64,000 nt of DNA. Origin: Sipunculus nudus (Eukaryota; Annelida; Sipuncula; Golfingiida; Sipunculidae). The translations under genes and the position numbers were made by a program. Numbering within the stretch: position 1 is the stretch's first letter; each line of letters begins with the position of its first letter. Shown here piece after piece: positions 9,677 through 60,195 of this stretch. The stretch covers positions 69,855,453 to 69,919,452 of the forward strand of contig CM049311.1 of the NCBI GenBank assembly GCA_026874595.1, given 5' to 3'. Under the pieces are notes generated by a model, which saw only the letters and a program-made list of their open reading frames with translations, had not been told where the DNA came from and did not search any database.

Positions 9677-10283
9677 TCAGCTTCTGGCCGGGTCGTTAGG
9701 TGGCTCGGATGTGTGTACCTGATTATTAGCTGGCCGACAGGTAAAGATGCGGACAAATACAGTACGAAATTGATGGCTTCTCCAGGCGTATATGAATGGG
9801 TTAACGCAGGAGTTAAAGAATATCAAATGTGATGCCATACGCTGAAGACTATCAGGCACACGGTATTTCATGTCGATCACCGCAATGAAACTAGAGGGCA
9901 GGCAGCAAGCCAAGAACGCCACAAAGATTATGATCAAACTGACAGTAACGCGCAGTTCACGTTTATCCTGCGCCAATGAACTAGCCACTTTAACCTTCTG
10001 ACGCAAAAACCTAACCAACCGCACATACAGGAATCCGGACGTCGTAACAGGTATTGTTATCGATATGGTGGTGGCAATCACCGCGTACAACAGTGTCCCT
10101 GGATGGTCGTAGTCCACGTTACACACGTTAGCGCGTGCATTGTATCCAAGGCGACCTAGTCCCAAGAAAGTAGGGATTTGCAGAATAAATGTCAGACTCC
10201 AAATCGAGGCTATTATCAGCGCCATGTTTCTTCTGGTATACCAATGTCGGTATACACTGGTTGCTTTTGTAACCAATATGTAC
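9677..10283 (-). CDS. Class A GPCR, exon 2 (TM4-TM7 and C-tail)
   Basis: This is the C-terminal two thirds of a rhodopsin-like seven-transmembrane receptor, acting at the plasma membrane. The exon opens after ..TTTTGCGCAG (3' splice site) at 10283, and its first base completes the Arg codon left by exon 1. Visible features are TM4 with the family Trp (ALIIASIWSL), an extracellular-loop Cys (ANVCNV) able to pair with the TM3 Cys, TM5 with its Pro, a basic third loop (DKRELR), TM6 with CCLP instead of the usual CWxP, TM7 with the NPFIY form of NPxxY, and a helix-8-like RSHQFRTVF. With exon 1 the receptor is 309 aa, complete but short-tailed. The closest feel is the melatonin-receptor/Moody/Tre1/GPR84 grouping. 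The ligand cannot be named. Confidence 0.9.
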
Positions 10284-10726
10284 CTGCGCAAAAGAAAAAG
10301 AAGTATTATGAGTAAAATTATTGTTTCCTCCGACATTTAAATCCATTCGTGTATTCCTGTTAAAAGTGAAGTGGTATTGACTTGTGTCAGAAAAAAATAA
10401 AGGGCTTCTATAACCACATGCATATTACCCATACTTGCGTTGGGATAAGTTCGCTTCGAAACGCGCTTCCCGATATAATGTTTATTGGAAAACATGGAAT
10501 ATGATCCCCTTAGGACACACTTGGCCTCTATCTCAAAATCTCAAGACCATAAACGAGCACTGAGTTTGAAAAAAAGGAGTCTAGTCGAAAATGAGCAATT
10601 TTCAAATCTATATATACATTTTGTTGTAGTTATGTTTTGTAGTTTTATAGTGTCCGACGAATTTATTGATTATAGATTTCTAATAAGGGGTTGTGTTTAT
10701 ACTATCATGCCACAATATAAATTGTA

Positions 10727-32552: not shown

Positions 32553-34846
32553 ACTAGTGGCCCATGGGCCATGACGCTCAGCTGAATTCAAGGAATGTTG
32601 AACAATGAGCAAAATGACTGCCAGAGTGCCAACAAATCATGAATTTTGTGATGAGTCTTTAGAAATTGGTTTCAGTAGGCTTTTGGACAGATGACTTCTT
32701 CATTTGAAGGTTTCATAAATAGAATTAAAAATGCATAAAAGTTTGAAAAAAAAATCAGGTAGTGCCACCAGTCTGCAGGAACTGATGAAACACACCACGA
32801 TCAAAATATATCCAAATAATCATGGCTATTAAGGCATTAGTTATTCAGATACTTGAGCATTTGTATTAACCCAAAGCCCATGTATGGACAGACGCCATGG
32901 GAAAATGATTGCAGATGGCACCACCAGTCTTGAATACAAGAAGGAGGAGTCCAAGATCTATGGGTATGCACCATTTCAGGCCACTATGGCAAATCATTCC
33001 TGAGGAAAGGGCATCAATTTATTCTACTAAACCAGAAGGCAGGTGGCGCCACCAGTCTGGTTTATGAGAAAAAAAATTCCAAGATGGACGGACATGCCAA
33101 ATTTCAGACCAATATCTTGAACCATTCCTGAGATATGAGCAATTTTCATAAAAAGAAACTATAACGATGGACACCACAAAAAACGACTCCAGATGGCGCC
33201 ACGAGTCTTGTTTATGAGATGTAGCTGTTGATGATCAACCCAATACATTGAAGAACCACTCAGACGAACAGATGGCAAATGCACAGATGAACACTTCGCA
33301 AAAAGTATTGTTGGTGGCACCACCAGTCGTTATAACAAGATGGAGAGATCCAAGATCTATGGACATGCACACTTTTAGCTTAATACATAAAGCCACTCCT
33401 GAGATATGGGCTGTTATCTAAAAGACACCCAGATTCGTACTGCACAGAAAAGATTGCTTGTGGTGCCACCTGTCTTTGTTTGGGATAACTACATATATGA
33501 GGGAACAACTAAGTTGGGTTTTGTAAAAAGATAGGTCCAAGGGTCTCAGAGGAGCTCTCTTGAGACGAAGCAGAGTTTTGGTATCACATTTTAAATTATT
33601 GTAGGGGGTACTTACAAGCCCCATAGCGCAGAGAATATGCGTAACGGAAACCTTATTTCAAATTTCCATGAAGACTATTCATGGACCTCCCTAGATGTCA
33701 ATGATGAAGATTCTAGGTCCAGCAGTTATAATTAAATGTGTGCCCTGTTACAAGATGAGGCTTTATTTAAAGGTCTCAAAAATAGAGAAAAAATGCGTAA
33801 AAATTCGAAAAAATACAGGTGGCACCACCAGTCTGCAGGAACTGATGAAACAATCCATGATCAATTGGTATGCAATAAATCATGGCCATCATTTCATTAG
33901 TTATTCAGATACTGGAGCTTTTATATCAAAATTTTAATTTATACTGAGGGGTACTTACGAGCCCCATAGCTCGGAGGATATAGGTAACAGGGACCTAATT
34001 TCATGTTTCCACAGAGACATTTTATCGACCTCCCTGGATGTAAAGTTAGAAGATTCTATGTCCAGTGGTTACAATTTGTGCCCCGTTAACATATGACAGC
34101 TTCCTTGAAGGTATGAAAAATAGAGAAAAATATTTTTAAAGATTAGAAAAAATCCAGGTGGCCCCAACAGTTTGCAGGAACTGATAAAACATTCCATGAC
34201 CAATATTCATGCAAAGAATCATGGTGATCAATGCATTAGTTATTCAGATACTCGAGCATTTGTATCAAATTTTTAATTATTCTTAGGGGTATTTAAGAGC
34301 CCCATAGTTTGGAGGATACGGGTAACAGAGACCTAATTACATGTTTCCATAAAGACTTTTCATGGACCTCTCTAGATGTCAAGTTCAAAGATTCCAGGTC
34401 TAGCAGTTACGATTTGTGCCCTGTTAACAGATGACAGCTTCTTTGAAGGTTTCAAAAACAGAGAAATAATTTGTAACAATTAGAAAAAAATTCAGGTGGC
34501 GCCACCAGTTTGCAAGAAATGATGGAACACTCCATGATCAATAGGCATGCAAAAAATTATGGCCAAAAGTGCATTAGTTATTCAGATACTTGAGCTTTTG
34601 TATAAATTTTTTTTATTATTCTGGGGGTTACTTTCAAGACCCATAGCTCGTAGAATATGGGTAACAGAGACCTAATTTCAGGAGATTTTTCATGGACCTC
34701 CTTGGATGTCAAGTAAGAAGATTGTAGGTCCAGCGGTTACGACTTGTGCCCTGTTAACGGACGGCCGGACAGCTGGACAGACAGACGCCGGACGAAGAGT
34801 GATCGCTATAGCTCAGATGATTTTCAGTCAGCTCAGCTTAAAACTG
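32553..34846 (+). mobile_element. Pearl/Helitron-like composite of tandem modules, near full length
   Basis: The left end is ACTAGTGGCCCATGGGCC (containing the 14-bp palindrome TGGCCCATGGGCCA) and the right end CAGTCAGCTCAGCTTAA. The same left end occurs at 60.19 kb (reversed), and related right ends at 8.36, 58.74 and 60.31 kb. Inside are about five short modules of 120-150 bp (32.76-33.47 kb) followed by about 3.7 long modules of 340 bp; the AGCCCCATAG landmark falls at 33616, 33958, 34297 and 34638. Each module has one GGTGGCGCCACC or a near copy. No protein is encoded. A left arm, tandem core and right arm, with a hairpin-forming CTAA-type end, resemble non-autonomous Helitron-related 'pearl' elements. 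That assignment is inference. Confidence 0.7.
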
Positions 34847-36749: not shown

Positions 36750-37083
36750 TTTATATTATTTTTTTTATGTAAGGATTTTTTTATCGTTTTGAGGTAAGCC
36801 AATTTTTTTTATCCAGGCGAGACGCATTTACTCGTATGAAAGGCTGTCCTTTGACTCAAACTTGGCATTGGTATACCCTGACACATGTAGCAGACAAAAA
36901 CTTTGATTACGATCCTGGAGGAGGTAATTATGTATTTAATATAGTGCTGGTTAAAAGAACAGGCTACTAGATGCAGAAAGGCAATTTGCAGTTCACAAAC
37001 ACATTTCTTAGCTGAAGGTCAAATTCTTTTAGTGCTTCAGGAACTTATCTTTTTTTGTTTTAATTCATAAAAAAATTCTCACC

Positions 37084-40000
37084 TTACTTTTTCTTCTTCC
37101 TGTTGTAACGCTTAGGTTGCCCTGGAGCTGCACATGCAGAATGCATTTTGTCAGGATTGTTCTCAATCGCAGATTTGTCTTCCTTTTCAGAAGGATTTCT
37201 CACAGTACAGCTTGGAGAGGGCAATTCAGAAACTTCAAAGCGTTGCGTGTCTGCTGCAGATTCATCATTTCTGGGATCCGTCCGGTCAACGTCATACGCT
37301 TTTGGACCAGACCAAGAAAAACCAATGACAAAGTAAACCGTTTTATTAAACCAACTGGTTTTTCTTTGAGGTATAGCAGTCTGAATCTCTATTTTTTGAC
37401 TGTTGTTTCTGAATTCTACTTCCACTTCCACGACCTTTCCACCCTCTGCTAGTTTCCCCCTGAAACGCTCCAGTCTTCCGAGTGTCTCTGTGCATCTCCA
37501 AAACCCTGATCTTTTAATGTCTTCGTCGCTTATTTTAATTTGCCGCCTGTTTGTAATCGAATTGATTCCTTGTCCTCTTGAGAAAAAGAACATTACGGTT
37601 TCTTTGTATCGATGAACATCATCTCCTCTTTGATATGGAAATCGGTCGAAGTATGAGTTCCGCCACTGTTTGAGTGCTTCTTTTATTTCGGTTGGGGAAA
37701 CCTCTTTTTGGTGTTTGCGACCCGGCCAGTTAAGCATGGTATAAAACAGAAAAGGTTCTTGACCTTGGAATTCTAATTTACTTCTTTTACTGTAGAGGAT
37801 AGTACTCCAGTCTGCAAGTGTGTTGAAAGAGCAATCCGACGGGAGGTCATGGCCTAGAGACGACATTGTGAAGATGATATTTATAAGCATGCGATAATCA
37901 TCAGCCTTCGCCCATTCCGAATCAGCATTTTGCTTCAGGTACGAGTAGGTTGTACGAAGCTTTGTGTCTCCCTGCTCGTGGTTCAGAAGTCTATAAATCG
38001 ATTCTAAGGAATTTCCCACCTCTTTGAATACAATTTGTCTACGATAAGCACATGCTTGCTGTTTTGATAGTTCGCCGAGGTTCTTTTCCCGAGTATCTCC
38101 AAAATATTGATCTAGTTCAGCTTTGAGAGAATACAAACTACTTGCCTCTTTCTTCTTCTGAGTGTAGCCAAAATCATCTTGGTAACTCTCACGAAGTTGT
38201 ATATTCTTATCCCACAGAAAGTTAATAGCTGAAAGCACATTTCTGCCAAGCACTTGCAAATCGTCTGCGTAATTCTTTTCGGTCGTATTACCCCATGATT
38301 TCAGTTCCTCTTCCATGTTTTCATCGCCCCTGAACAGTAAGCGTAACTTCTCATCGGCTTTGGTTTTTGACAATCCAATAAAAGGTTCTGAGAATTTCAA
38401 ACAATCAATCAATGTCAGGAAAATTCTTATTTCTGCGTAATACCCCGAGTCGTTTGTCCGTCGTTGCAATCCCTCTGCTTTGCTAAGCGTTTGCTCCTTG
38501 TGACACAATTCCATACCTGATTGTGCGATCTTGAAGAGTTCTAATTCTTCTTCCTCTGACATATGCTTTGTTTCCAACTGTTCCCTTTTCTTTTCCAGTC
38601 TGGTCAGATATATTCTTGCATAAGTGTCAAGAAAATATGAATTTCCTGGATATTTCACAATAGAGACTTTGATGAATTCTTCAGCTTTAGACCAGTTCTG
38701 TAGAGAAATGTAAAACCGCGAGATTTGTTGTGCAACAAATGGATCATCAGTGATCTTGAATCCCATCTCATATACCTCAAGTGCTCTTTCTATACTTTCA
38801 TTTTCTTTTATATTTTCTATCAGTGGTGAAAATTTATCAAGAACACCTTCTACACCCCGTCGTCTTTTGGTTAAGATGTCTTTGAGATACCGCCGGAGAA
38901 GATTCTCTGCATGGGTGCCTGTGGAAAAAATGTCCCTCCTTTTCATGAGTTCCATTGCAATTTCACTACCCGTCTGATTATAACTTTCTTTGAGTTGTTT
39001 CAGGATTTCTGCTGAGAGCAATGGATGAACAATTTCAATTGCCTTTGTGTAACTCAGCTCGGGAGCAGTTGTATGGCTCAACAAGATAGTCATTGGATGA
39101 CTGAGGCTAAGTTCCCAAAACTGTTCACGGGAAACCATCCCTCCATAGCCCCAAGGTCTTCGACCAAGCTTCCGCTTATTTGGTTTGTAGTGCATCATCA
39201 TATGGAAAGCTCCTGTGGGGACAGGACTGTGATTGAGGTCATAAGTGTTTAAGAATGAAATGAATTTCAACAAAAGTCTTTCCTCTGGAATGTCAATTGA
39301 ACTGACGAGATGGGAAACCGTGGCTTCAATCTGTTCTGTGCTGAAGCCCGATTTCATTATGTTGAAAGCTATCAAACTACTTGGATCTGGACCATCAAAC
39401 TTTTCATGTTGGTCCTCCAACCGACGATATGTCTCTTGAAACTCTTTTATTTCATTTTCAGCTAGTTCCAATTTGAGTTCAACTTTTGGATGCAAATGGT
39501 GGCGAGGGGATTCTGTAGCACGGACACATACAATAAAAACACAGGCAATATATGTTTTCTTCATGTAGCCTTCATTTTCTCTTTCTTCTAGCCTGGCTTT
39601 CTGTTCAACTTGCAGGGTGAGACTTGCTAGTTTTTCTTCGTCAGGATTATCAAGTAATACAATCACCGGTTTCGGTGCTTTTTCTTCAAACGCACGGAAG
39701 TCAAGGATCTGTTTGGCGATACTTTCTTCGTCCTGTATAACTGAATTGACAACTGCACATCTTTGCTTTTTTCGTAGCTTCCATAAAACATGCTTCGCTA
39801 AGGTTGTACCACCAGCACCAGGTTCATGATACAACGTTACCCGTGCAACTCTGTCTTCATTTGTTGCCAGATGTTTTCCAGAAATCCCATCTTCAACTTT
39901 ATTTTGAAGTTCTTTTAGCTTATTCCGCGTCTGGACGTGATTTTCGAAATAAAAGTTCCACCATGATACTTCTTTGCCGCGGTAAAAGTCTTCTTCTACC

Positions 40001-41804
40001 TGATTTTTCAGCAAATTCAAGGACCCGGATTCTTTTCTTGACTTGGCTTCGGGCTCACATTCGTTCATACCAACAATTTCCAAATCCCTCCATTTGTTTC
40101 TTTGGACAAAATCCAAATTACATTGTTTGTCAGTGGAAGAGGGAATTTTAGATGGAAAACCTCGGAGTGGTTCACACACTTTCCGCATAATCAAACTGGC
40201 AGTGCTCCAGGGAATCCCAGCTGCAACTGAACTAAGAAATTCCTTCTCCTCCTTCCCAAGCTTTTCAACAAGTTTGCGCTTTACGCTATCCGCTGCCTTG
40301 ACACTATCAGAGAGTATTGCGAAATGATGTGGAAACTTCACCAGGAGTTCATAAGCAGCTTCAGTCACAAAACTTGTATCTTCCGATGGCAAAATCAGAG
40401 TAATAGCAGCTCTTTCTTTTGGAATAATCCAAGACAGAAATTGGATCACTTCATGAAAAGCTTCACCCTTTTCCTGCTTCCACTGGAAGAAATGTTTTGC
40501 TGGCTCATTATTTTCGCTAGTTTGAGTGTTTGACAGGACCCATGGTAGTAGTTGTGTTGTCTTTAATTCTTCTTTGATGTCCTTTTGTCTCTGGGGGTTG
40601 TCAGAGTGAAATTCATCCAATAAGAATACCCTGATATGTTGGTCCTCTAATTGATCTAAATAATCCAGTAGTCTCCCAGAAGGATCGAAGTCAAAAACAG
40701 CCTTCCATTTCAAATCTTTTAGAAATGCCATGTTCTTGAAAAAGGCTTCGTCTGCATCAAGGGGTGTGGGTCCCAAAATCAAAACGGGGTACTGGTCGCT
40801 CATACTTGTTGTGTCGCCTCTGTACAAGAGTTGCGTGTACCTGTCAACCCAATAGGGGAGGTCCGGTTCGCCGCTTAGTTCTAATTCTTGCATCTGTCGA
40901 AGGTCATAGAGTCCAGCAACATCAAAGTAAAAGTCATCAGTAATCTCTGGTGAGGCTACAGAAGGTACGCCATTCATCAATCGTAACAAGGTTCGGGAAT
41001 TGTCCTTTTCTTTCATGAAAAATATTTCCTTCCTGCAGATTTTTGCTGAGGGTATAACGTCTACTTCATACACATATCGTGTTACTGATTGGGCCAATGA
41101 TGAAACAGCGATTTCACGCAATGGTTTGACGCAATAGAGTACCATTTCATAGAGGTCTGTTGAATACTGTTCTTTCACTGTTTGTTGAAAACGCTTATCA
41201 AACTCTTTTATTCCAGCCTTTATGCCAATGACTTGCCCATCTTTACTCACTCCAAAGTGAATAGTTCCGTTTTGGCGATCATTTAAGCATGCAACGGCAA
41301 ACCTCAGGGTGATATTTACCATTTCATCAATACCAAAGTCAGGTTCTTCACTGTGTATGAAGTAATGCGTTGGCAGAAGCAGTTCTCCTCTATTTCTGCC
41401 TGGAGACAGATCAAATATTGCATTTTCCTTATATGGAAATGATTTGTCTGCACCGAATTTTCTGAAGGACTGTATGCTGTCTTGACCCTGCAGAATTCGT
41501 GACGCAGTTGCAGAATTAGCCTCTGTAGTTCTGGACGATGGATTACTTCCTACGTGTTCATCCCGTTTGGTTAAAATCGTATTGAGGGTACCATATGGCA
41601 AATGGTGAAAACTTTTGGGGAGATTTTTAAGTTCCATGTTTTTCAGCCTAAGACCATTTACATTTCCTGTGACAAACGCATCTATCACTTGCGCTGTGTC
41701 TGCAGGTCCCAGGTTCAGCTCATTTAGCCATGCACAAACTTTACCAATAGTCCAGTCCTCCATTCCACCCACGGTTCTCTCTGTTTCACCGATGCATCTT
41801 TCTT
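37084..41804 (-). CDS. SAMD9-like protein, large 3' exon (SAM to OB-fold)
   Basis: This exon encodes about 1573 residues of a SAMD9/SAMD9L-family protein, cytosolic factors that in vertebrates restrict virus replication and translation. It opens after the acceptor TTTTTGTTCTAG. In order come a SAM domain (WTIGKVCAWLNEL.., about residues 16-80 of the exon), an AlbA_2/Schlafen-like fold (FAVACLND..GTIHFGVSKDGQVIGI, about 165-200), a Sir2-like region (about 320-450), then the STAND-type P-loop YHEPGAGGTTLAKHVLW near 660. Its GGTT replaces the usual GK(S/T), as in vertebrate SAMD9. The Walker-B-like strand VIVLLDNPDEE follows near 715. Helical TPR-like repeats lie about 1015-1140 and a C-terminal OB-like region about 1430-1520, ending in a Lys-rich tail. 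No frame break occurs over 4.7 kb, so it is under coding constraint. The length is close to human SAMD9. Confidence 0.92.
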
Positions 41805-42068
41805 CTAGAACAAAAATATAAGTGAATTGTAACATAGTCAATGGACACAGAAAATATCATCACTCGACAAGTGTAAGAAGCCTGCCAACCTTTATTCGGA
41901 AAAGAGCAAGGTGGTAAAAATTCAAGAAAGCACAAAGCCAAGTATACGTTTTATCAGGAAGTAAAAACGACGAAATATTATGAATTCTTTCATCCATGCC
42001 TGAAAGAGACTTTAAATCATTTAAACTTAATTATTTTACATGGATTGTACAACTAGCTATTACAGTTA

Positions 42069-42226
42069 TACAAGGCACTCCATGGCTCGGATTGTTGGAG
42101 GAAACCGAAGAAAACCGCCGACCATGGACGGGTCACTACAACCCACTCTCATGGCAACTTAGGGGATCGAATCCCGGTCGCCAGCGGAGGGAGCCGAGCG
42201 TCTTACCACTCGAAACATGAAGTGTA
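42069..42226 (-). repeat. tRNA-derived SINE fragment
   Basis: Read on the minus strand, an A-box-like GTGGTAAGACGCTCGGCT is followed at tRNA-like spacing by the B-box GGGATTCGATCCC, then GGTTTTCTTCGGTTTCCTCC. This is the general layout of tRNA-headed SINEs in invertebrates. It lies in the last intron of the SAMD9-like gene, same strand. It cannot fold as a functional tRNA that I can see. Confidence 0.55.
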
Positions 42227-42296
42227 TATAACGAACATTCATGATTTTTCTGTGAAGCCATCGCATAACCATTTTTCTTGTTATAGGTAAAGTTAC

Positions 42297-42409
42297 CTTG
42301 TTTTGTTCCCTGATGTTGAGTATTTGCCTGATATTCAATCTTTTTGTTGATAGCATCAAGGCCGTCTGGGTCCTCTTCACGAAACGCAAGACCTCGAACA
42401 ATAGCACTA
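42297..42409 (-). CDS. SAMD9-like gene, small exon 3
   Basis: On the minus strand the open stretch SAIVRGLAFREEDPDG..INKKIEYQ..HQGTKQ ends at AAACAAG|GTAACT, a good donor. Its final G joins AA of the large exon to encode Glu, keeping frame into EERCIGETERTVGG before the SAM domain. The 5' limit is less certain. An acceptor at 42410 (GCAAG|T) keeps phase with exon 2; one at 42414 (CTTAG|CA) would need exon 2 to end elsewhere. The 113 bp are codon-like and acidic/basic mixed, a likely linker. A longer open frame in another phase here is a shadow. Confidence 0.7.
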
Positions 42410-43338
42410 CTTGCTAAGGTTATATTCTCTTCAAGTTGTCAAAAACATTACAAATATAGATTTCGAAGAAACGTATTTTCATTTAAATTTAATTCAAGCC
42501 GTTGCACGTATACATGAGTGTACACATGCCGTAACACAAAGCTAGTTATTAAGGTAACAGGCTTCGTATACGTTTAGTAAGATCAAGCATGATAAAGAAG
42601 GGTTAAAGGATTATGCTAAACTTAAGTTAATTATTTAACTGTGACAACAACATATTCAGAGTACATATGTATTAATGTAAATATTATACAGATTCTTTCC
42701 AGGAATTTATTAATTTTGAATTTTTATGAGCGCAGTAAAGCCCTGCACCATGCATAACAAAAAAGAGAGAAAATAATTACCTTTCATGCAGCAGCAATGC
42801 TTAACTGGTAATATTGCACAGCTTAATTGCATTAACTAAAAATAGCAACAGTACCTTCAGTGGCGACATATTTTATCATGAGGGGAAATGTAGACTGAGT
42901 AGGAGTTTGTGAGTAGGAGTTTCTAAGGATTAATTGACAGTCTAACCTATGTTGTCTAACAAAGAAAATTGCCGAAATTCTGAACAAAGAAGTCGGTATG
43001 CAATTTTAACGGTTCATTATTATCTGAATGGAAGCAGGATTTCGTGTTCAAACCTTAGACTGAAAACTTATGCTTACCTCCGGTAATTTTTCTTTTTAAT
43101 TATAAATAAAACTATAAATTCACAGTTTATCATGTCATATATGCTAAAAGAGTCAATTTAACTTAAATATAGCCCCCCTTTAAATCCTTTGTCAAAGTCG
43201 TCATATAAAAACATTACCGAATAAAACCCGTTTGTGTAAAAACCTCGAAGGTACATCCGTAGATGACACAAAGGGGTCTACGGACGTAAACGCCCAGTCT
43301 GCTAAAGAATAAACGGATAAATGTATTTAAAAGGATAC

Positions 43339-43534
43339 TCCTCGTTGCTTCCTTCAATTTTTGTTTTCGGGAATGCTTTCGGAATCACACGGAAAAGGCG
43401 ATGGTAGTCTTCGCCTAGAAGACATTGATGAAGTGCTGCTGTTCTCCAGATCTTGAAGAATTCTATAGATGATCTGGCCTGGGCCATATAGGTATCTTTC
43501 AGATATTTCATAAGCTTGTTTTCTGCCTTTTCCT
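43339..43534 (-). CDS. SAMD9-like gene, exon 2
   Basis: The exon starts after a strong acceptor (ACTTATTTTTCAG) on the minus strand. Its first two bases complete the Glu codon begun by the G left by the CARD exon. It encodes about 65 residues (EKAENKLMKYLKD.. to ..KTKIEGSNE), predominantly charged and probably helical, with the segment SSIEFFKIWRTAALHQCLL most helix-like. The proposed donor GAGGA|GTATCC is weak but is the one that keeps frame with exon 3. Reading through would hit a stop at 43302. It could be a second, divergent death-fold or simply a linker; I see no clear domain. Confidence 0.65.
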
Positions 43535-44100
43535 CTGAAAAATAAGTAGTTTTGTATTATATACTTTGGTATGGTTATTGTCATGGAAAGTATAAAAGAT
43601 GCATTTTTGATATCCTTGTTGCTGTTATTATTGTCATTGTAATTATTATAATTGTAAAACCCCCGCCATAAGACTAGGGACCACTAAACTCGTAGCTTTT
43701 GTCCGTCTGGTCGTCAAACCCCTAACAAATGTTGCCCTATTAACTGTGACTTAATAACCTTCATGGATCATCACCATTTTTAGACACATAGTTCAGATGA
43801 GAGATTTATTGATCAGAGTCATTCAAAGGTGGTGTTACATTACTTGCGTGATCAATAATGGTCTTTCCACTTCCCCCTAATAAGTGAGTAAATGTGAACA
43901 CGGTTAATTAAATGATCAACTTGTTTTATGCCTTACTCCCTGAAAATGTATATTTCTCTCAAACGTCTTTTGACTGATTTCAGATTTATTCTTAACATAT
44001 TAGTGTAGGCTCATTTGTCATGAAAAAAATAAACTTTGTGTATTTTTTTTGGTAAAAGCAAAAATTCAATTGATTTTGTTAGATGATAGTATAAACATTA

Positions 44101-44150
44101 AAAAATTAGGGTGGCATTTTTTAGCATTCTAACGGCCTGAAATCCAAGAT
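44101..44150 (+). repeat. Left terminal inverted repeat of the Academ-like element
   Basis: It pairs with the reverse complement of 49815-49867, with the first 22 bases identical (AAAAATTAGGGTGGCATTTT plus TT). Confidence 0.85.
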
Positions 44151-44496
44151 GGCCGCCACAATAGCAAAAAGGCATAAATTTGAAGCTAAATTTTTTTTCA
44201 GCATATATACTGTTTGGAAAATTAAACATAAAGGTGACCATGGTAACAATTTTCATCTGACTACTTATCTTTTATTTTGTACACTTTCAGACAAAGGCTG
44301 CCATTTTAATATGGCTGCCAGGAACTTGATTTTCGAATTCAGTCATCGGCAGTGATTGTTCGCATTAGGTTAAAATTCCTTTTGTCAATTTTATGGTGTT
44401 TATACAAATATATTCTTTTCTTATTTGCAGTCTACAAGTACCCACAGCAACCATAACCCATGATAACATAGCTTAGAGGCCTCAAATTAAGCAAAA

Positions 44497-47400
44497 ATGG
44501 CAGAGTCAGCATTAACAAGAAGTCAAAAAGGGTGGATTTTGCGCTATGCTTTATTTGTCAGTTGAGCAGCAAGCAAACAGATTATACAAACTGTGCTTCA
44601 TCCTTCTTTGCCTTCAGTAGAGAAACTAATTACAACCACTAATGTTCGATGTTTATATGGGGAAACAGAGTTCTCTGTATTGAAGTGTCGCATTAAAGGT
44701 TTGTCCGCCGATGAACTGTTACAGAATGGTATTTCCTACCACAAGACATGTTATAAGGATCTCACGCATAAAACATGCATTGAACGAGCTAGGATCATAT
44801 ACGAGAAAGGAAAAGCGACAGGCCGTGCCAGTTATGTAAAACAAAAGACAAAAGGACGGCCGCCAAAATCTGACTCTGCATCTGAAAGTGCTTTCACGTC
44901 ACAGCGATCTACCAGAAGTCAGACATTTGACAAGGAAATGTGTGTCATTTGTCAGGAAGATAAAGCAGACAAATTGCACGATGTTGCAACTGAAAATATG
45001 GGAGCTCAACTCAAAGCCATTGGCCAACAGACAAACAATGCACTTCTGAAAGTTAGATTGAGCAATGTTGTAGGCTCATCCGATCTCCTTACAGCAGTTG
45101 CTGAGGACATGAAATATCATCTTCTGTGCTTAAGCCATGCAAAGCGAGACATAGAAAAAGCTAACAGACTCCCAAAACAACAGATTCAATTTTCTCGGTT
45201 AGTGTCTGACCTGGAGCTACTTGACATGGTGGAAACTGGAATAAATGACCCAGCCAACAGTTCTGCTTTGAATATGACGACATTGAACAATCATATCTTG
45301 GTTTGCTAGAAACCAATGGGTTCGCCTTACCCAACAATCCACGATACAAACCATACTTAAAGCAACTGATTCTGGACAACATCCCTGATGTGCACTTCAC
45401 CAGGCCTCCAGACAAAACCAAACCTGAACAAGTACTTTCTACCAAAGCCAAAGTACCCTGTTAGCTGGTGCTATGGCCACAGATACAAAAAGCCTAAAAG
45501 AAGATGTGAAAATCCTTTTGAAAGCAGCTAAAATGTTGAGAAGAGACATTGCAAGTGCAACACTGTGGAAGTTCGAAGGAACATTTGATAATTATGAACC
45601 ACCTACTTTGCTTCAACTCTTCTGCAAGTATGCTACCTAAGGTTTACATCAGGTTAAAACGACCATCAGGGCCAAATCTCTGAACCAGAGTGCATTTGTG
45701 GTGGCACAACATTTTGTGTGTGCATACAAATCTGATCGGCAGGTCTCATATGAAACTAAACATGAAGATGTCGCTTTCAAACACCGAACTGAAACTCCCC
45801 TTAGCGTCGGCTTGGGGTCTACATTTGCACAAAAACACCAGGTCATAGTCCCTTGTAGAGAGGCTAAGCCAACTAGATCTCACCGTTCCGTACAAAAAGG
45901 TTATAGAAAGAGACTGCCATCGCAAATACTGTTCTTGAGAAGATTAAATCCATTGGAGTTGTTTATCGACCACCTTGGTTGGTGAATGACTTGAAAGTTT
46001 GTTTGGTTTGCGCTGGACAACATAGATTTTCTCGAATCAACACCTTGTGGCATGAATACACTCCATGGCACTGCCACTGCTATATACCAGAGTGAATCTG
46101 ACAAATCCCCAAGAACACCACTTGACATCGATCGGTCATCAAGGTCTCAAACATTGGAGGCTGCTATTCCATGTGAAATCTTATCATGTGACAAACCAGT
46201 ACCAACGAACAAAAACTGTGTTTGCACACTGAATTCCTGCAAGTCCAGCACAGAGCCAAATAAGGAGAAGGATATGGCATGGATTATTGGCTGTTTGGAC
46301 CTCAACGAAAGCGAAGTAGAAGTAAAACCAAGTTCAACTCTCTATTGTCTCCGTCCGGCCTCAAGACAAACATTGCCTTAGTACCACCTTTAATACGCTT
46401 GCAACCAACAGGTTATGACATCCTGTTCACAGGTCTGATGAGAGCACGTGATATCGCTACTCATGCCATGGGACCAGAAGCTATCACAGTTGTGACTCTT
46501 GATCTTCAGCTATACGACATGGCCATGAAGTTGTGGGTGAAGAGAGAGGACATCCAGAAACAGTTTTTATTTCGCCCTGGTGAGCTGCACATCGTGTTCT
46601 GGGCACTGGCTGCCTTGGGAAAATATGTGGAAGGCATTGGTATTGACCAGGCATGGGTCGAAGCTGGACTTTACTCACCTACAACAGTAACACAAATACT
46701 CAACGGGAAACACATGTATCGAGCACTAGAAGCTCATACAATTACCTTGCTCGCTTTGTACAGTTTGTACTTCCGAAAATTCCTGGAACTTCAACCTGAT
46801 GAAAAAGCTTTCTCGAAGGAAACATCCACTCTTTTGGGAGAAGCGTATCAGCAAGACATCAATACTGACTCAGGAAGCAGACACAATCTCAGTGATGCCG
46901 TTACGAAAACAATCGAAATGTTCGAATCAAGGGACATCTTCCGAAAGATCAAACAATCTGAAGGTACTGAAAACAAAATTCAGCGTTTCATCGGAAACTA
47001 CATGAAGCAGTTCGAGACCATCCTCCAATTTGTTCGAGCCACCAGACAACGCGACCTATTGCTACACATGTAGAGTCTGGAATCACTAACGAAGTACTTC
47101 TTTGCCCATGATCATTTAAACTATGCGCGCCTTCTACCACTGTACATTTCCACAATGCAACAGACAGAACAGCAGCATCCTGAGATCTGGGCAGAGTTCA
47201 TGAATGGGAATTTTAGTGTCACCAAAGGTGTTGCTGGATTCACATCAATAAGCCAGGACCATGGGATTGAACAAGAGAATCGTGAACTCAAGGTTATTGG
47301 AGGCATTGTTGGAATCACGCAGAATGAAAAATCACTGGACAAATGCTTTCTCATCGCACCTGAACTTTCGAATGTACAACAAGAATTTGGCAACAAAGAG

Positions 47401-49329
47401 AAGAGAACACAGCACCATGAGCTTACAGGGGCAAAACTCATCCGATTAACACAAAAACGCAGTCAAACTCGCCACAGTATTTCATGAGCACGGTAACCCA
47501 TTTGAATCCTCTGATGAGGATGAGGTATACAACCTGCTCACCAAAGCAGTTATGACTGAAACTGCTACCAACGGTATCATTCAGCGTGATGAGATTGAAC
47601 AACCGATGTTTGAAAGTTTTGTCAAAGAACGCCTTACAGGAGGAAAACTCTCAGTGTGGGACAAAATGTCCGAAAAGAAAATGAGAACTTTCAAAAGTGC
47701 TAATGCAATGTCTGAAATTAGAATTGGAGACAAGGTGGTCAAAATCAAAGAAGAGCGAGGACTTTTGCAACGCTTTATATTATTTCCAGAAGTCGACCAG
47801 AGCTGGACCTCAAGGAATGCATTGGTACTTATGAGTTTGGTGTGGTGCCTCGATCTCTGTTTGCTTCAGATGGATCCCTCCTGCTAGCATATGATAAGGT
47901 TTCAGTACACCATCATCTTGAGAAGCTGGATACAATACAACAGGTCCAAGATGACAGTAACGGGGCAACTAGGGGTGAACTATCTGATAACCAAGCAACG
48001 CAAGAACCCTTACAAGGGGCAGACACAACAGTGGAACATGCACATGTGGATCCAGCAGGTGAATCATCATCACATAATCATCATTGATGGAATGGCTGTA
48101 GTTAATTCAGTTACCAAAAAGAACAAATGAAAACATGCCAAAACTTTGCAGATGCCTTTCTGCAGATAATCTGTAACATGACAGCACAGTATGATGAGGT
48201 CAGATTGGTCTTCGACCGGTACATAAGAACATCCCTCAAGGAACAGATGAGGACAAAGAGGACCAAGGGAAAGTCAACATATTACCACGTGAAAGACACC
48301 ACTTTGATCCAGAATATTTCCCTGAAGGACTTTCTATCAGATATCCGGACCAAAGGAAAACTGACCGAGTATTTGGCTGACAAGGTTGTACGTCACAGCA
48401 AGAGCCCCAACAACAGATTGAAAAACTAATGGTTACATCAGGAACACAAACCAAGGGCAATGTTGATATTCCATGTTCACTCCTCACTCACAGCCAAGAA
48501 GAAGCAGTCACTTTGCTTGTACTGCATGCTCTTAATATTCCCAATGATGCAGAGCTTGTTGTCAGTTCGCCAGACACGGACGTCTTGTTGTTGCTTGTCT
48601 ACATGTATCCAAGCTTACCAATATGTACAACCTTTTCTCGCAGGAAAGGACAGGCTGAAGAGGAATATCTCTGTGCAGAGCATATACAACAACTTGGGAC
48701 CAAAGCGTGCTTCTGCACTGTTGGTTTTTCATGCTCTGACAGGTTTCGATATGTCTTTGAAATTTGCTGGCAGAACTAAAGACTCATGCTTCAAAGCATT
48801 CGTGTCCTGTGATGATGAGATCCTGGATGCACTAGCAATGCTCGGGAGTGACAACGATCTCCCCACTGATGCATGCTCTCAGTTAGAACACTTTGTCTGT
48901 ATTTTGTATCGATCCAAAATCTACACAAACGTAAATGAGCTCCGTTGGTTCCTCTACTCCAATCGTGCAGCTGAAGCAGAAAACCTCCCACCAACTTCTG
49001 GTTCGCTGGACTTACACATTCGACGGGCACACTACGTATCCATGATTTGGAGAAAGGCTACTGTAAATCACCCACGTCTCCCAGGACCAGCTGCATTTGG
49101 TTGGACATTTGATGCAGGTTCAAGTCACTTCTCTCCTGATCGCTGTTTGAATCCACCAGCTCCTGAAGTAGTATTGCACCTCATAAAGTGTGGGTGCAAA
49201 CATGGATGCGAAGGAAGATGCAGCTGTTGCAAGAACAATATCCCATGTACGGAAGTTTGCGGATGCTGGCTTTTCAGTTGCAACAACAAAGCTATTCAGC
49301 CAGGCATAGATGAGGACTGTGAAGATTGA
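44497..49329 (+). pseudogene. Academ-like transposase/XPG-nuclease gene, multiply disrupted
   Basis: Homologous-looking protein runs in one order across three frames. An N-terminal zinc-binding part comes first (CFICQ near 44540, YHKTCYKD, CVICQEDK, CLSHAKRD). The core follows with TPLSVGLG (45795), DNIDFLE (46015) and NTLHGTAT (46053), then RPGELHIVFWALAALGK (46575) and LNGKHMYRALEAHTIT, the DDE/RNase-H-like transposase signature of this family. Next are VFDRYI..SLKEQMR, SQEEAVTLLVLHAL and SSPDTDVLLLL, an XPG/FEN1-like nuclease (48.2-48.6 kb). The C-terminus has a cluster of about ten Cys (CGCKHGCEGRCSCCKNN, 49190-49290). Decay is shown by an in-frame TAG at 47071 and at least six frame changes (near 44570, 45270, 45640, 46370, 47490 and 48640). 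It has no introns. The family name is my recognition, not a search result. Confidence 0.8.
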
Positions 49330-49814
49330 GGTGTTGTCTTCTATGACTTTCATGAATTCAATTAACTCAACTGATGTCCCTTGGTAAAAACTACTGATTA
49401 AAACACATGCATTTATCCAGTACGACTTACTGTATTTTCGTGTTTAAATGACTTTAACAAGATTGAACAATAATTAGATTGCTTCATTTTATTTGGATAA
49501 GTTTGTTGACTTGTTAATTATGTATTCTTTGAGGTAAATTCATGATTTAATGTGATATTTGGTTTCGTAATTACAACATCGTATTGACTCAGTAATGTTT
49601 GCAAAGGTATAGCCAACAATTATGGGTTTTGGCGATCATTTCTGAGGTCATCTTGGAATTTGGCAGGTAGATCATGCATATTATCTTAATTTGATGATTC
49701 CATTAGTTTCCTTGTCTGAAAAAAACATATATTTGGACACCTTACTTGTAATTGTATCATATGTACTTGCAACGATATCGCATTATTCGTGTGCGGCTGC
49801 CATTATGGACGCCA

Positions 49815-49867
49815 TCAGGGATTCCATACCCTTAGAATGTTAAGAAAAAATGCCACCCTAATTTTTC
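49815..49867 (-). repeat. Right terminal inverted repeat of the Academ-like element
   Basis: It ends GCCACCCTAATTTTT, complementary to the left terminus. The element length between outer ends is about 5.77 kb. Confidence 0.85.
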
Positions 49868-49916
49868 TTGAAGCTTGTGATACCTTCTTTCAAGATCAAG
49901 GGAGATTTTGCTTTTA

Positions 49917-49945
49917 CCCCCCCCCCCCCCAAAAAAAAAAAAAAA
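49917..49945. repeat. 14-C then poly-A homopolymers
   Basis: C(14) is followed directly by A(15), about 50 bp outside the transposon end. Confidence 0.9.
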
Positions 49946-50764
49946 TACACGAAATTACAAATAAGCCTACACTATATGTTACCATACGTCACAGAAACAG
50001 CTTTGGCTATAAGTTTCAGATTTTGTAGACCCATCTACCATTCTATGATTTTTTTACTGTCGCCTAACGACGTTTTAATATTTTTTTTACTGATATCTAC
50101 ATTATATTTATTATCTTTTCATTATCATAACATATATTTTTAATTATCCCAGGAGCCATTCAAGTGCTATGTTCGGGTTCTGTTGATCATGTGCAGTATA
50201 GAGTTTCAAACTGGTGAGAAATCAAATATGGTGATTTTTGTCATTCCTGTAATGCGCGTTATCTCAAGTATATTTTGCATTTGAAGCAGTTGAGACGTTG
50301 TAGTTTCCCTTAACTGTTATGGTACTTTTTGTTAAATTTAATTATGTCACAATGTATACATTTATTTATAAATTCGTATGCTCCATCTAATACTTATAAA
50401 AGGAATTCAGTTCACGTTTGTGCGCAATGTTCTCTAAAACCGCGCTGTGTACAATATTGTGCCATACATCATTTTAAAGGTTATTATCCCCGCAGTGACA
50501 TAGGCGATATGAAAATAAATAATTTAATATACATATAATTTTGAGTGATTTTTCCATTTTTTTACCGAGCACAGCCGAACTGTCTTCGGCAATTACCGGA
50601 ATGCGTGCATCTTGGTCACTTAACCCCTAACACTAAGGACTATTGTTCATATGAATAACGCTTGCTTTCAATGAGGGATTTGACCCACGTGCGTGGTCAG
50701 TAAAAGAGAAAAACACATGTTTCTCGCTTTATGAAATGGAGAGTTCATACCTGGAGGATTAATG

Positions 50765-50940
50765 ACAAAACCTAATTCAAGGTCCAAATTTCAGGAACAT
50801 GCGTGGGGTGGGGTGGGATGGAGTGGTGTCTGGGGTTTCAGGCCTCAAAATTTGTCTGATACGATGAAAAAAAAAAACATTGCGGCGGTTGAAAATGAGT
50901 ACGGACCCTCTGCATGGAATTCCGTTGGGTCCGCTTCTGT
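50765..50940 (+). mobile_element. GGATCCGCC-type MITE copy
   Basis: It contains GGCCTCAAAATTTGTCTGA and ATTGCGGCGGTTGAAAATGA in the family order and ends GTTGGGTCCGCTTCTG. The homopolymer of the other copies is replaced by GGGGTGGGGTGGG. Confidence 0.6.
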
Positions 50941-51850
50941 TACTTACGAGTTATGCATATTTCTGTTTCTTTCTTCAGGAACAGTTTCCTTGCAACGTAC
51001 ATTTAATAAATCTTTCATGTGTTCCTCACATCAACCTTATCTTTATACGTCCACCGATAGAATCCAGTCAAATATCATCGAAAACCTGAATGCCCCCGCG
51101 TCTCATTCCGGTTCGCAATGTCATCACCATCACTGGCCAGGTCATCAAGGTAAACATACCGGGGTATAAATTTCTTGCCATGAGGACAGAACCACAAAAT
51201 GAATGTTAAAAATATTGAAGCGACTGCAGGATCACTCACGCACTGTCTCCACCAGATTATGAGTTTATACGGACGGACGGTATGATGTTAAGGATTCATG
51301 TGATTTAAAAGTAAGTGGCAAAATTAAGATACAAGCAGCTGTACATAGAAACGTTTTCTGTTCACAGAAGTGTTGTGCCTCAGAGAGGTGCGTGAGTTAT
51401 TCTGCAGTCGTGCCAAAATGTTTATACATATCTTATGGAGACAGTTTCCCACTGAAAACCAATATTTTCTGTTAACTTTTGGATAAAAAAAAATGAGCCA
51501 ACATTTCACATCTCAGTTAATAAATCTCTCCAACCCCGGCAATAAGCCCGGTATACCGGGTCTATCAGCTAGTATTGTTTAAATTGAATCGTCTCATTTT
51601 TAAGTTTATTTGGGGGGAAAATGGTAATGGTGTAGAAAGGGTAAAATGAAAAGTCTTGACACACAAATTAAAATATGGCGGTGTCATTATGGTGGGGAAA
51701 AAAAATAAAATTGCAAACAAGGCTGTCATTGGTGATTGGGTAATGCGATTTGAAAATACACGGTCTATGGTCTACAAAGGTTGGTAATTATACCATTGTG
51801 GGTATTTAATTAAAGTGGTGATACTTTGCTGATATTTAAACAAAATTGTA

Positions 51851-51851
<1 letters not shown>

Positions 51852-51903
<52 letters not shown>
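51852..51903. repeat. (TA)n microsatellite
   Basis: An uninterrupted TA run immediately before the gypsy remnant. Confidence 0.95.
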
Positions 51904-51904
<1 letters not shown>

Positions 51905-51906
<2 letters not shown>

Positions 51907-53275
51907 CACCAAAGCGTGTACGTGAAGTAACAGAGCGTGAGGGAGTAGGACGTGAAGCCCAGAGAGCTCACGAAATAGAAATTCTGAAATTGAAATCAAC
52001 ATTCAGCGGTAATGAGGGCGAAAGTAAACAGATGAGGACTAGTGAATCGATCCTGAAAATCAAGCTCCCTCCTTTTACTGAGCAGCACGATAAATTAGAC
52101 GTGTTTGGAGCGTTTGGAGCGTTTATAGCTGTGTCAAAAATACGATCATGATAGCTAGGCTTTGTAGTCAAGTACTTTGTTGCGTGGTAAAGCGCTTGAT
52201 ACTTACGCGCAATTAGCAGTTAGCGAAGCCATTGACTACAATAAGCTAAAGTTAGCTCTTTTAAAGCGTTACCATGATGACTGAGAAGGTTTATCGTAAC
52301 AAGGTTCGTACTTGTAGGCCAGAGCGTGGCGAAACTCCCAGTGAGTTAACGGAACGGCATAGTCACACGGTGGATACCTTGACCATTGGATCGAGATGGC
52401 TGATATAGGCGATGACTTCAACCTGTTTGTTGACTTGCTGATGCGGAACAGTATTTAAACTGTTGCAGCAAAGATCCCTCTGTGTGTTTGAAAGAGAGAC
52501 ACAGAGTCGCGATACAGACAGCATGACGGGGGACGGCCGAGTGGTATACGGAGGCCCAGGGCTAACGCAGTTTTACGGCGAGTTCCCTTAGTAGTGCTCC
52601 CCGAGCTTGGCATCAAGTAACTCAGCCGAGAAACGTGATGTAGATCGCGTATCACGTGAACAGTCAGTTTTGCCATCGGGAGGCTTACGTTGCTTCATTT
52701 GTAACGGTTTGGGGCATTGGCACAAGAATGTAAACAGACCAGTGACAGGTCTGGGCCAAGGATTACCAGCGTTGCACTTAGCTGTTAAACAGCGTAGTAG
52801 TCAGGTGGCTAAACCGAAGCGAAAGCCCGAGTCGGTGTTAAAGGTTTCTACGGAATCCGAGTCAGAAATCGTCAGTCCCGTTAATCCGGATTCGGACTTA
52901 TACTGGAACGGGATGTACGGGCGGTATAGCCGCATTCTGCAGGTCGTGTTCGATAGGTCACCACACCGGAAAGGCAGAGTCTCAGTGCCTTGGGCCACGT
53001 TAGACAAGATGCCCCTAATTGACGAACCTTGGCGTAGGATCGCCATGAATTTAGTCGGACCGATCCATCCTGCGTCCGACAAGGGTCATCGGTACATACT
53101 GACCATCATGGACTACGCTTCGCGATACCTGGAGGCAGTGGCCTTAAAGAACATACACCGCGACCGTAGCTGACGCGTTAGTCGACGTCTATGCACGGGT
53201 AGGAGTACCGGCGGAAGTATTCACTGATATGGGGAGTCAGTTCACATCTGACCTCATGAGAGAAAATAACCGGAT
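51905..53275 (+). pseudogene. Ty3/gypsy remnant: gag, zinc knuckle and integrase core
   Basis: Gag is recognised from KLPPFTEQHDKLDVF (52065) and, in shifted frames, DTYAQLAVSEAIDYNKLKLA and WIEMADIGDDFNLFVDLLMR (52200-52450). A CCHC knuckle follows, CFICNGLGHW near 52690, whose last Cys is lost. Then, without reverse transcriptase or RNase H, the integrase core appears as MPLIDEPWRRIAMNLVGPIHP..RYILTIMDYASRYLEAVALKN (53010-53150, first catalytic Asp in MDYAS), and after a frameshift EVFTDMGSQFTSDLM (53210-53260, second Asp). It breaks off there. Missing pol middle, frameshifts and stops mark a dead, internally deleted copy. The tail at 35.1 kb is from a similar element. Confidence 0.85.
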
Positions 53276-53289
53276 CAGTATCATCCTAT

Positions 53290-53570
53290 CAGCAGCCGTC
53301 AATTGAGGTTTTTTATTGCTTGTGACCAATGACTTTAAAAGCCATAAGTGAGTCTGATATGTTGTAAAATGTAGACTGATTTCTCATATTATCAGATAAT
53401 TTTGAATTTTAAATAAGGTGTAAGGTAGGTATTTATTTACCTTGTTAAAAATAAGGTCCTTTATTCCTATGCTCTACACTATAACTGTTTCCCCCGAAAT
53501 GTAACTAATAAAAATTTTCATAGCAAACATCAAATGGACATGAGGGGATGAAACAGAATATAATATGACA
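53290..53570 (+). repeat. ~280-bp direct repeat, copy 1
   Basis: The segment from CAATTGAGG through GTCTGATATGTTGTAAAATG, TAGACTGATTTCTCATATTA and GGACATGAGGGGATGAAACA recurs at 55.99-56.26 kb with high identity and small indels. It has no coding capacity and no clear inverted ends. Confidence 0.8.
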
Positions 53571-53677
53571 TTTTATAGGGATATTGATCAATAGATTGGT
53601 ATATTAATATAACCAGTAAATGGATCATATTATGTTGACATTTCTTTGAGTAAAAACGACATTTTCGATTAAAAACT

Positions 53678-53690
53678 CCCCCCCCCCCCC
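53678..53690. repeat. Poly-C tract (13 C)
   Basis: A short uninterrupted C homopolymer. Confidence 0.9.
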
Positions 53691-54440
53691 ATTATCCCCA
53701 CTTAACTGTTATATCTAGCCATTACTTTATAGCTAGGGGAATAAAGTAAGTTTAAATCGAGTTGAATTATTTACAACAAGAGGCTCTTCAGAAACTATAA
53801 ATTTTACTTATCATCAAAAGTTTGGCATAATAATTAGAAGGTATGTTCCAAATATCCCAGGAATTACTGCAGAGTATAATACAAATGTTTTGCCTTTGTC
53901 TTGTTATGTAAGATTTTGGTGGAATCACTGCTGTGGACACCAATCACTTTGCCCGGTATGTATAGCTCCCAGTGGCTAAGATTGATTGAGATCTAGTTAA
54001 ACTCTATTACTCCTACAGGAATTCTTGACTGTAAGCATGAGATAACCCCATACTGGATAAAAAGCTTGAACATTTATTTTCAAATTCCCCTTTATGGTTC
54101 ATTATTACAAACTGTCATGCAATACTGCACACATTGTAAAACCCCTTGGTCCCTTGTTCAGATGTGCGCTGTTTATATTCCCGTCGCTCACAGTTGGAAA
54201 TAATGTCTGCACAATCATTTAAAAGCTGACAAATTTATTTTATAGGCTTATGTTTTGCATTAAAACAGGGTTCGGGTAGAGCTACAGGGATATTATAAAC
54301 ATCACTGTTGCTACATGTTTCGAGCTATACGTGAACTTTAATAGCCTCGGGATCATGATCATTATTATTATTTAAGAATAAACGTATAAAATAAGAAAAT
54401 CTGAGATAAGTTAGAATAAGACAAAATATTTAATACATAC

Positions 54441-54738
54441 CTGTCCATTCACTCGTTTTATTAACGATCATGTCTTTGATGTGTGTGAATCCGGAGTTTT
54501 CTAGGCAGGTAAGAAACTTTTTAAAATCCTCTTCATCTGTTTTTTTCTTTATAATATTCAATAGCTCTTCTGTTTGTCTAATGGGGTTAGATCCAAGACA
54601 ATCTATGATTTCTCTTTGGTATTCGCTTATTACATCTTCTTCGAATAAACAGCCTAAAAGATCACAGTACCGCAACCGAATTGACTGGATGATTTTGTTG
54701 TAACAAACCTGTAGGCTGTATTTATATCTTTCCGCCAT
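54441..54738 (-). CDS. SAMD9-like gene, CARD-domain exon 1
   Basis: The start is the ATG at 54738-54736. The same frame has a TGA at 54774-54772 and no other ATG between, so this is the first usable Met. An acceptor-like TGATGTTTCAG just upstream allows a 5' UTR exon. The 99 residues form a six-helix death-fold of CARD type: hydrophobic spacing YSLQVCYNKIIQSIRL, DLLGCLFEEDVISEYQREII, RQTEELLNIIKKK, DEEDFKKFLTCLENSG, FTHIKDMI. CARDs mediate homotypic assembly in apoptotic and inflammatory signalling. The exon ends GGACAG|GTATGT in phase 1, which matches exon 2 exactly, so the predicted protein is CARD-linker-SAM-SAMD9 body. The domain call is strong; linkage to exons 11-17 kb away rests on phase and splice sites. 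Confidence 0.75.
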
Positions 54739-58737: not shown

Positions 58738-60195
58738 ATTAGCTCAGCTTACTGAAAGTCATCTGAGGTATAGCGATCACCGGCCGTCCGGCCGTTAACA
58801 GGGCGCAAATCGTAACCGTTGGCCCAGGAATCTTCTAACATGACATCAAGGGAGATCAATAAAAAATCTTCTTGGAAACCTGAAATTAAGTCTCTTTTAC
58901 CCATATTCTCCGAGCTATGGGTCTCGTAAGTACCCCCCAGAATAATAAAAAAATTGATACAAAAGCTAAAGTGAATAACTACTGCATTGATCACCAGATT
59001 AATTCTTTGCATGAATATTGATCATGGAGTGTTCTATCAGTTCCTGTAACCAGGTGGCGCCACCTGTATTTTCTTCCAATGTTTACGAATTTTTTTTCTC
59101 TATTTTTGAGACCTTCAAGGAAGCTGTCATCTGTTAACAGGAAACAACTCATAACCACTGGACCTGTGATCTTCTAACTTTACAGCAATGGAGGTCCATA
59201 AAGGGTCTCTGTAGAATCCTAAAATTAGGTCTCTGTTATCCATATTCTCCGAGCTATGGGTCTTGTAAGTACCCCCCAGAATAATAAAAAATTTGATACA
59301 AAAGCTAAAGTGAATAACTACTGCATTGATGACCATGATTCTTTGCATGAATATTGATCATGGAGTGTTCCATCAGTTCCTTTAACCTGGTGGCGCCACC
59401 TGTATTTTTTCCAATTTTTACGATTTTTTTTCTCTGTTTATGAGAGCTTCAAAATAGCTGTCAACTGTTAACAGGAAACAAATCGTAACCGCTGGACCTT
59501 GGATCTTCTTATTTCACAGCAAGGGAGGTCCATGGAAAGTCTCTGTAGAAACCTGAAATTAGGTTTCTGTAACCCATATTCTTCGAGCTTTGGGTCTCGT
59601 AAGTACCCCCCAGGATAACTGAATAACTACTGCATTGATTTCCATGATTCTTTGCATGAATATTAAAGTGTGTTCAATCAGTTCCTATAACCTGGTGGCG
59701 CATCCTGTTTTTTTTTCTAATTTTTACGAATTTTTTTTTCTCTATTTTTGACACCTTCAAATTAAGCCTCATCTTGTTACAGGGCACATATCGTAACCCC
59801 TTGACCTAGAATCTTCATACTTGACATCTAGGGAGGTCCATGAAAAGTCTTTTTGGAAATCTGAAATAAGGTTTCGGTTACTCTTATCCTCCGAGCTGTT
59901 CGGCTCATAACGAATGAATTGATAGCTATGATTCTTTGAATATATATTGATCATGGAGTGTTCATCAGTTCCTGCAGACTGGAGGCACTACCTGTATTTT
60001 TTCAAATTTTTACACATTTTTTTTTCTATTTTTGAGACCTTCAAATGAAGTGGTCATCTGTCAAAAGCCAACTGAAACCCATTTCCAAGGATTCTTCACC
60101 AAATTCATGATTTTTTTCATTCTGGCGGTCATTTTGCTTATCGTTCAACATTCCTTGTATTCAGCTGAGAGTCATAGCCCATGGGCCACTAGTTA
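58738..60195 (-). mobile_element. Pearl/Helitron-like module element, inserted in reverse
   Basis: Read on the minus strand it begins ACTAGTGGCCCATGGGC near 60192 and ends GTAAGCTGAGCTAAT near 58738, the same two ends as the 32.55-34.85 kb copy. It holds about four modules (CGAGCTATGG landmark at 58911, 59250, 59584 and 59892; period about 335, the last shorter). Exact GGTGGCGCCACC palindromes lie at 59053 and 59389, with decayed ones near 59695 and 59982. It splits a plus-strand copy of the same family, which gives both junctions directly. Confidence 0.75.

Follow-up and report, generated by a model that had tools for sequence, protein, structure and literature searches.

Does the minus-strand gene at positions 37084 to 54738 of a 64,000-nucleotide (nt) stretch of the Sipunculus nudus genome (assembly GCA_026874595.1, contig CM049311.1, positions 69,855,453 to 69,919,452 of the forward strand; hereafter the window) encode a protein of the SAMD9 family headed by a CARD, and through which of its parts would such a protein act? 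A SAMD9-family gene with a CARD head is the probable answer to the first question. As to the second, the reading preferred here, with a probability of roughly 55%, is that of a STAND sensor which carries the CARD at its N terminus, has lost its built-in tRNase (a nuclease cutting transfer RNA, tRNA) and signals through the CARD.

The original prediction joined four exons with matching phases into 5328 nt, or 1776 codons, and all of these elements are present at the positions it gave: the exons sum to that length, i.e. 1775 amino acids (aa) and the stop codon, with zero internal stops and with GT and AG ends at all three introns. The exons and the open frame are observed; the splicing of the four exons is predicted. 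The exons, with the slash marking the splice point in the donor, are the following:

54441..54738, minus strand: exon 1, start codon and CARD (model residues 1-99); Pfam CARD match, donor CAG/GTATGT
43339..43534, minus strand: exon 2, helical-looking linker with a good acceptor and a weak donor; open frame, within the top-ranked codon-usage candidate
42297..42409, minus strand: exon 3, linker whose 5′ edge is uncertain (42409, 42413 and others possible); within the second-ranked codon-usage candidate
37084..41804, minus strand: exon 4, SAM, AlbA_2, Sir2-like, STAND NTPase, TPR and OB regions and the stop codon; stop-to-stop frame, match to a SAMD9 chain

The start codon of exon 1 (ATG at 54738) has an A at −3 and a G at +4, and an in-frame TGA lies 36 nt upstream of it; the frame opens at 54771 and closes beyond the donor, with a stop codon at 54430. 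The donors of exons 1 and 3 have eight of the nine consensus letters each, and the acceptors of exons 2 and 4 are pyrimidine-rich. The N-terminal CARD proposed in the original prediction was recovered by a Pfam search with exon 1 alone, in which the CARD profile gave an E-value of 6.8e-7 and 29.7 bits, above its cut-off of 23.9.

The 4.7-kb exon 4 sits in a stop-to-stop frame of 1590 codons (37084-41856), a stop-free length on account of which a chance frame was rejected. It was matched to the SAMD9 chain 9zjr_A with an E-value of 1.8e-69 over model residues 324-1709, that is from the nuclease domain almost to the C terminus, and all eight of the PDB sequences among the matches listed are SAMD9; with the exon open and SAMD9-like over this extent, a pseudogene was rejected as well. 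The P-loop, LYHEPGAGGTTLA, aligned to LYHHPGCGGTTLA of SAMD9, has GGT in place of GKT and a His upstream, which is the signature (GGT/S instead of GKT/S with the upstream His) described for the SAMD9 family by Mekhedov, Makarova and Koonin in 2017 (PMC5445408). The regions assigned within exon 4 are:

41554..41763, minus strand: probable SAM (about residues 217-286), starting at an internal Met; SAM_2 profile, PDB matches weak
41002..41442, minus strand: AlbA_2 or tRNase-type domain (about residues 324-470); SLFN_AlbA_2 profile, 7ksp_A and residue mapping
40102..40914, minus strand: Sir2-like region (approximate); colinear with SAMD9, domain name from PMC5445408
39382..39999, minus strand: STAND-like P-loop NTPase region (approximate); colinear with SAMD9, nSTAND matches below cut-off
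39796..39834, minus strand: P-loop LYHEPGAGGTTLA; alignment to SAMD9 LYHHPGCGGTTLA, signature as in PMC5445408
38422..38814, minus strand: TPR-like region (approximate); colinear with SAMD9
37276..37494, minus strand: C-terminal OB-like region (approximate); SAMD9 alignment reaches model residue 1709

The order AlbA_2 (tRNase), Sir2-like, NTPase, TPR and OB is that of human and rabbit SAMD9 and SAMD9L. The putative SAM precedes AlbA_2 and begins with MEDWT, which we take to resemble the DDWT of human SAMD9. The AlbA_2 segment scored 25.6 bits with SLFN_AlbA_2, narrowly above the cut-off of 25.3 (22.2 bits in the whole model, below it), and it matched the SAMD9 nuclease-domain structures 7ksp_A (E-value 7.3e-14) and 9o0d_A (‘rSAMD9’, 5.7e-13), so that the AlbA_2 domain and the SAMD9 membership of the original prediction are both upheld by profile and sequence searches. 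The labels Sir2-like, TPR and OB were given by position in the SAMD9 alignment, without profile support: Pfam gave no match to the Sir2-like region, scanned in the whole model only, and none to the segments of residues 1020-1330 (TPR-like) and 1550-1775 (OB-like). Exon 2 gave no Pfam match above cut-off, and a match of the linker to Lipoprotein_3 (E-value 0.001, 19.1 bits, cut-off 22.7) was rejected as implausible.

A CARD in such company has precedents. The domain scheme of SAMD9 in the figure legend of PMC12331169 lists a SAM and no CARD, and CARD, Death, Pyrin and FIIND domains have been described in fish and invertebrate SAMD9 proteins in PMC5445408, which already makes the apoptosome or inflammasome proposal for the family. 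The CARD fusion, the central idea of the original prediction, therefore stands as a probable fusion and less as a novelty, fusions of this kind having been in print with the same proposal since 2017. Like the present gene, the proteins of that paper have the SAMD9 core, the GGT P-loop and a CARD toward the N terminus. Unlike its scheme, in which SAM is limited to vertebrates, DEATH-type domains are found instead in other animals and one fish subfamily has SAM with Pyrin, this gene would combine a CARD with a probable SAM.

Codon usage was scored with a model trained on exon 4, with the surrounding intron less exons 2 and 3 as background. In the 12.6 kb between exons 1 and 4 (minus strand, 54440 to 41857) the segments with exon 2 (15.9 bits) and exon 3 (15.8 bits) head the 25 non-overlapping candidates listed, the next having 10.4 bits, and are the only minus-strand ones above 14 bits; exon 1 scores positively in no frame but its own. 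Coding-like exons between the CARD exon and exon 4 argue against two separate genes, namely a short CARD-only protein and a SAM-first SAMD9 starting from Met217, as do the strong donor of the CARD exon, the fit of its phase to exon 4 and the published CARD-bearing proteins of the SAMD9 family (PMC5445408). Such a split, which is considered unlikely, would draw on read-through of the exon 1 donor to the stop at 54430, giving a protein of 102 aa ending in SEWTGMY, on the internal Met just before the SAM in exon 4, and on the 10.9 kb, including a transposon with inverted ends, that separate the CARD exon from exon 2.

When the codon-usage scan, trained on one exon and thus able to miss genes, was extended to the whole window, the minus-strand segments above 14 bits beyond the four exons were only 9093-9206 (14.0 bits), 60053-60157 (15.2 bits) and, in two frames, low-complexity sequence at about 19.3 kb; on the plus strand the scoring segments were low-complexity sequence, the transposon of intron 1 and some short stretches. 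The short coding-like segment at 60053-60157 is separated from exon 1 by 5.3 kb on the upstream side, beside a satellite-like array, and may be an upstream exon or a chance occurrence.

Exon 1 can be joined in frame to exon 4 directly and also through exon 3 with the acceptor at 42413; the joins of exons 1, 2 and 4 and of exons 1, 3 (acceptor at 42409) and 4 break the frame. Since several routes keep the frame, the CARD-to-SAMD9 reading is independent of the exon 2/3 junction. The two in-frame joins, together with the internal Met217, would also permit both kinds of product, the full CARD-SAMD9 protein alongside SAM-first forms from an alternative start or forms skipping the linker, with the CARD as an optional head. 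This possibility, which overlaps with the preferred reading and is rather unlikely, has against it the two out-of-frame joins and the chance occurrence of joins that keep the frame, as 15 of the 80 junction pairs do. Exons 2 and 3 are 309 nt together and the exon 1 donor and exon 4 acceptor are both of phase 1, which would fit a history in which upstream exons were added to one long SAMD9 exon. At the other end of the gene, a donor-like sequence, AAAAAGTAAGGTGAG (37060-37100, minus strand), overlaps the stop codon and runs past it; the last exon may thus undergo a further splice, and the C terminus or 3′ end may differ.

The most interesting part of the gene, which was overlooked in the original prediction, is the apparent loss of the nuclease site. 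Residues were mapped in three MAFFT alignments against 7ksp, which we take to be human SAMD9, two of them holding a poorly aligning row from Nostoc; with the 7ksp fragment numbered from residue 156, all seven residues named below fall on the expected letters. For the SAMD9 nuclease of mammals the acidic residues E184, E196, E218 and D241 and the basic residues K198, K214 and R221 are reported to be essential, and strict conservation across some 370 mammalian proteins is reported for E184, E196 and E218 (PMC12331169). In the S. nudus protein E184 is replaced by G and E218 by I in all three alignments, and E196 by Y in two, with a gap in one; D241 is replaced by K in all three, with an Asp as the next residue. 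K198 corresponds to I in two alignments and a gap in one, and K214 to E in one and gaps in two. None of the three strictly conserved glutamates of the mammalian SAMD9/9L tRNase, nor D241, is thus matched, and unlike this gene the mammalian proteins deplete tRNA-Phe via a domain needing these four residues (PMC12331169). The simplest reading is that the AlbA_2 domain would no longer cut tRNA; as the catalytic glutamates are unmatched, it probably serves for binding or scaffolding only, and we infer a loss of catalysis from these replacements. The nuclease residues are not discussed in the accessible parts of PMC5445408, and the portions of open-licence PubMed Central text searched did not bring up any account of CARD-bearing SAMD9 proteins having lost the nuclease.

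One step from the preferred reading is an AlbA_2 domain that still acts as a nuclease with altered residues, the protein both cutting RNA and signalling through the CARD. The good match to 7ksp_A, the Asp one residue from the D241 position and the retained R221 agree with it, and rabbit SAMD9 remains active although one of the essential basic sites has the opposite charge there (PMC12331169). With all three strictly conserved glutamates and two of the three essential basic residues unmatched, it is nevertheless quite unlikely.

A number of results weigh against a CARD-headed SAMD9 protein without tRNase activity. As to the nuclease, R221, one of the three essential basic residues, is kept in all three alignments, and the list of essential residues comes from mammalian SAMD9/9L only, so that an invertebrate nuclease could use other ones. 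As to the CARD, its Pfam score in the whole model is 23.8 bits, just under the cut-off of 23.9, and a phmmer search of the CARD exon against the PDB, weak as a single-sequence search, gave no CARD among the 11 matches listed. The single-sequence structure model of the CARD has six helices with a poor predicted local distance difference test score (pLDDT 52.4), and Foldseek with this low-confidence model put the CARDs of Apaf-1 and caspase-9 at the top with E-values of 0.96 or worse, none of the 54 matches reaching 0.001 or better. The SAM of the original prediction falls short of the SAM_2 cut-off of 20.5 bits (18.9 bits, E-value 0.0018, on the segment; 13.4 bits in the whole model) and stands as probable; its pairwise score against human SAM was reached by 44 of 2000 shuffles, and the single-sequence model of SAM and AlbA_2 is poor (pLDDT 35.8), neither of the two structure models being good enough to serve as evidence. 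In the gene model, the exon 2 donor GGA/GTATCC has three of the nine consensus letters, and the exon 3 acceptor (...GCAAG) is poor as well. Of the 80 pairs tested for this junction 15 preserve the frame without a stop, and by a simple consensus score the chosen pair stands near the bottom of the 15, with most of them higher. Intron 1 carries the transposon, which lies inside it and accounts for part of its 10.9 kb.

More distant relatives were sought in contig scans. The scan of genome contigs gave three bacterial relatives from 127 stretches, which are informative on the core only; the scan of viral contigs gave one pattern-matching stretch and no relatives when exon 4 was used from its 20th whole codon onward, and 40 stretches and no relatives with an 87-residue NTPase stretch. 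One of the bacterial relatives is a SAMD9-like STAND protein from Nostoc (L002, 4675-8476), which has AlbA_2 and is spread over two overlapping frames; its AlbA_2 match has 31.9 bits (cut-off 25.3) and its nSTAND_NTPase5 match 29.4, below the cut-off of 34. Unlike the S. nudus gene it has no CARD or SAM match. It shares the GGT P-loop (HEPGAGGTT), a likeness partly due to selection as the P-loop was among the search patterns. Its AlbA_2 motif is IDFK (acidic-Phe-Lys) against YFI here, a comparison made by eye, the two being unaligned in the two alignments holding Nostoc. Many bacterial members of the SAMD9 family are without AlbA_2 (PMC5445408).

The surroundings of the gene are rich in repeats. 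Intron 1 contains a DNA transposon (about 43993-49981, ends read by eye), some 6 kb in length and bounded by long terminal inverted repeats, and five frames or segments scanned among its plus-strand open frames (44566-49329) gave no Pfam match at an E-value of 0.01 or better. A transposon origin of the CARD exon was rejected, since the transposon lies outside the exon and has its frames on the other strand. The plus-strand frame at 52595-53173 resembles by eye a piece of a retroelement integrase (DEPWRRIAMNLVGPI...), with no Pfam match at 0.01 and a zinc-knuckle hint at 0.26. A tandem repeat of about 338 bp (33573-34758) flanks the gene on one side and a related inverted array (58794-60050) on the other. 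On the minus strand at 9677-10336 there is the C-terminal part of a rhodopsin-family G protein-coupled receptor (Pfam 7tm_1, E-value 2.6e-21, covering positions 82-260 of the 260 in the profile). No Rfam family reached its gathering score anywhere in the window. Judged by gene content, namely SAMD9 and CARD with introns and the rhodopsin-type receptor, the DNA would be of animal origin.

Apaf-1 and the CARD-bearing NLRs, like this gene, combine a CARD with a STAND-type NTPase and sensor repeats; they differ in having an NTPase of another subfamily, and this gene has AlbA_2/Sir2 and OB regions, without WD40 or LRR. By the logic of its domains an inflammasome- or apoptosome-like action is plausible. 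The C-terminal TPR and OB parts would detect the trigger, probably a nucleic acid or protein that is foreign or abnormal, upon which the GGT-type nucleotide-binding core would open and oligomerise in a nucleotide-dependent manner; the SAM may help to polymerise. The clustered CARDs would then recruit a CARD-bearing partner, a caspase or an adaptor, leading to cell death or inflammatory signalling. AlbA_2, the tRNA-cutting effector in mammalian SAMD9, would here be catalytically dead and probably a binding or scaffold part, the output having shifted from the intrinsic tRNase to CARD adaptor signalling. Both oligomerisation and partner recruitment are predicted from the domains.

According to a review (PMC13245274), eukaryotic STAND proteins characterised earlier recruit adaptors, and SAMD9/9L depart from this by carrying an intrinsic tRNase. 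With its tRNase site apparently lost and a CARD gained, the S. nudus protein would probably follow the usual animal route and recruit a caspase or adaptor through CARD-CARD contacts. It is tentatively suggested, at somewhat less than even odds, that this represents an effector swap, in which the ancestral tRNase was disabled and a CARD gained. An antiviral STAND protein that acts by itself, in the bacterial style, would thereby have become an animal one that recruits adaptors, its SAM and CARD forming two polymerising heads. Two features would be new here, the occurrence of a CARD alongside a probable SAM in the same protein and the lack of the three mammalian glutamates in the nuclease domain; the former would add to the picture given in PMC5445408, if the SAM is real in this invertebrate. 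If the swap is true, the step between direct-effector and adaptor-signalling action would become testable within one family, and a search for CARD partners of SAMD9-type sensors in invertebrates would be suggested.

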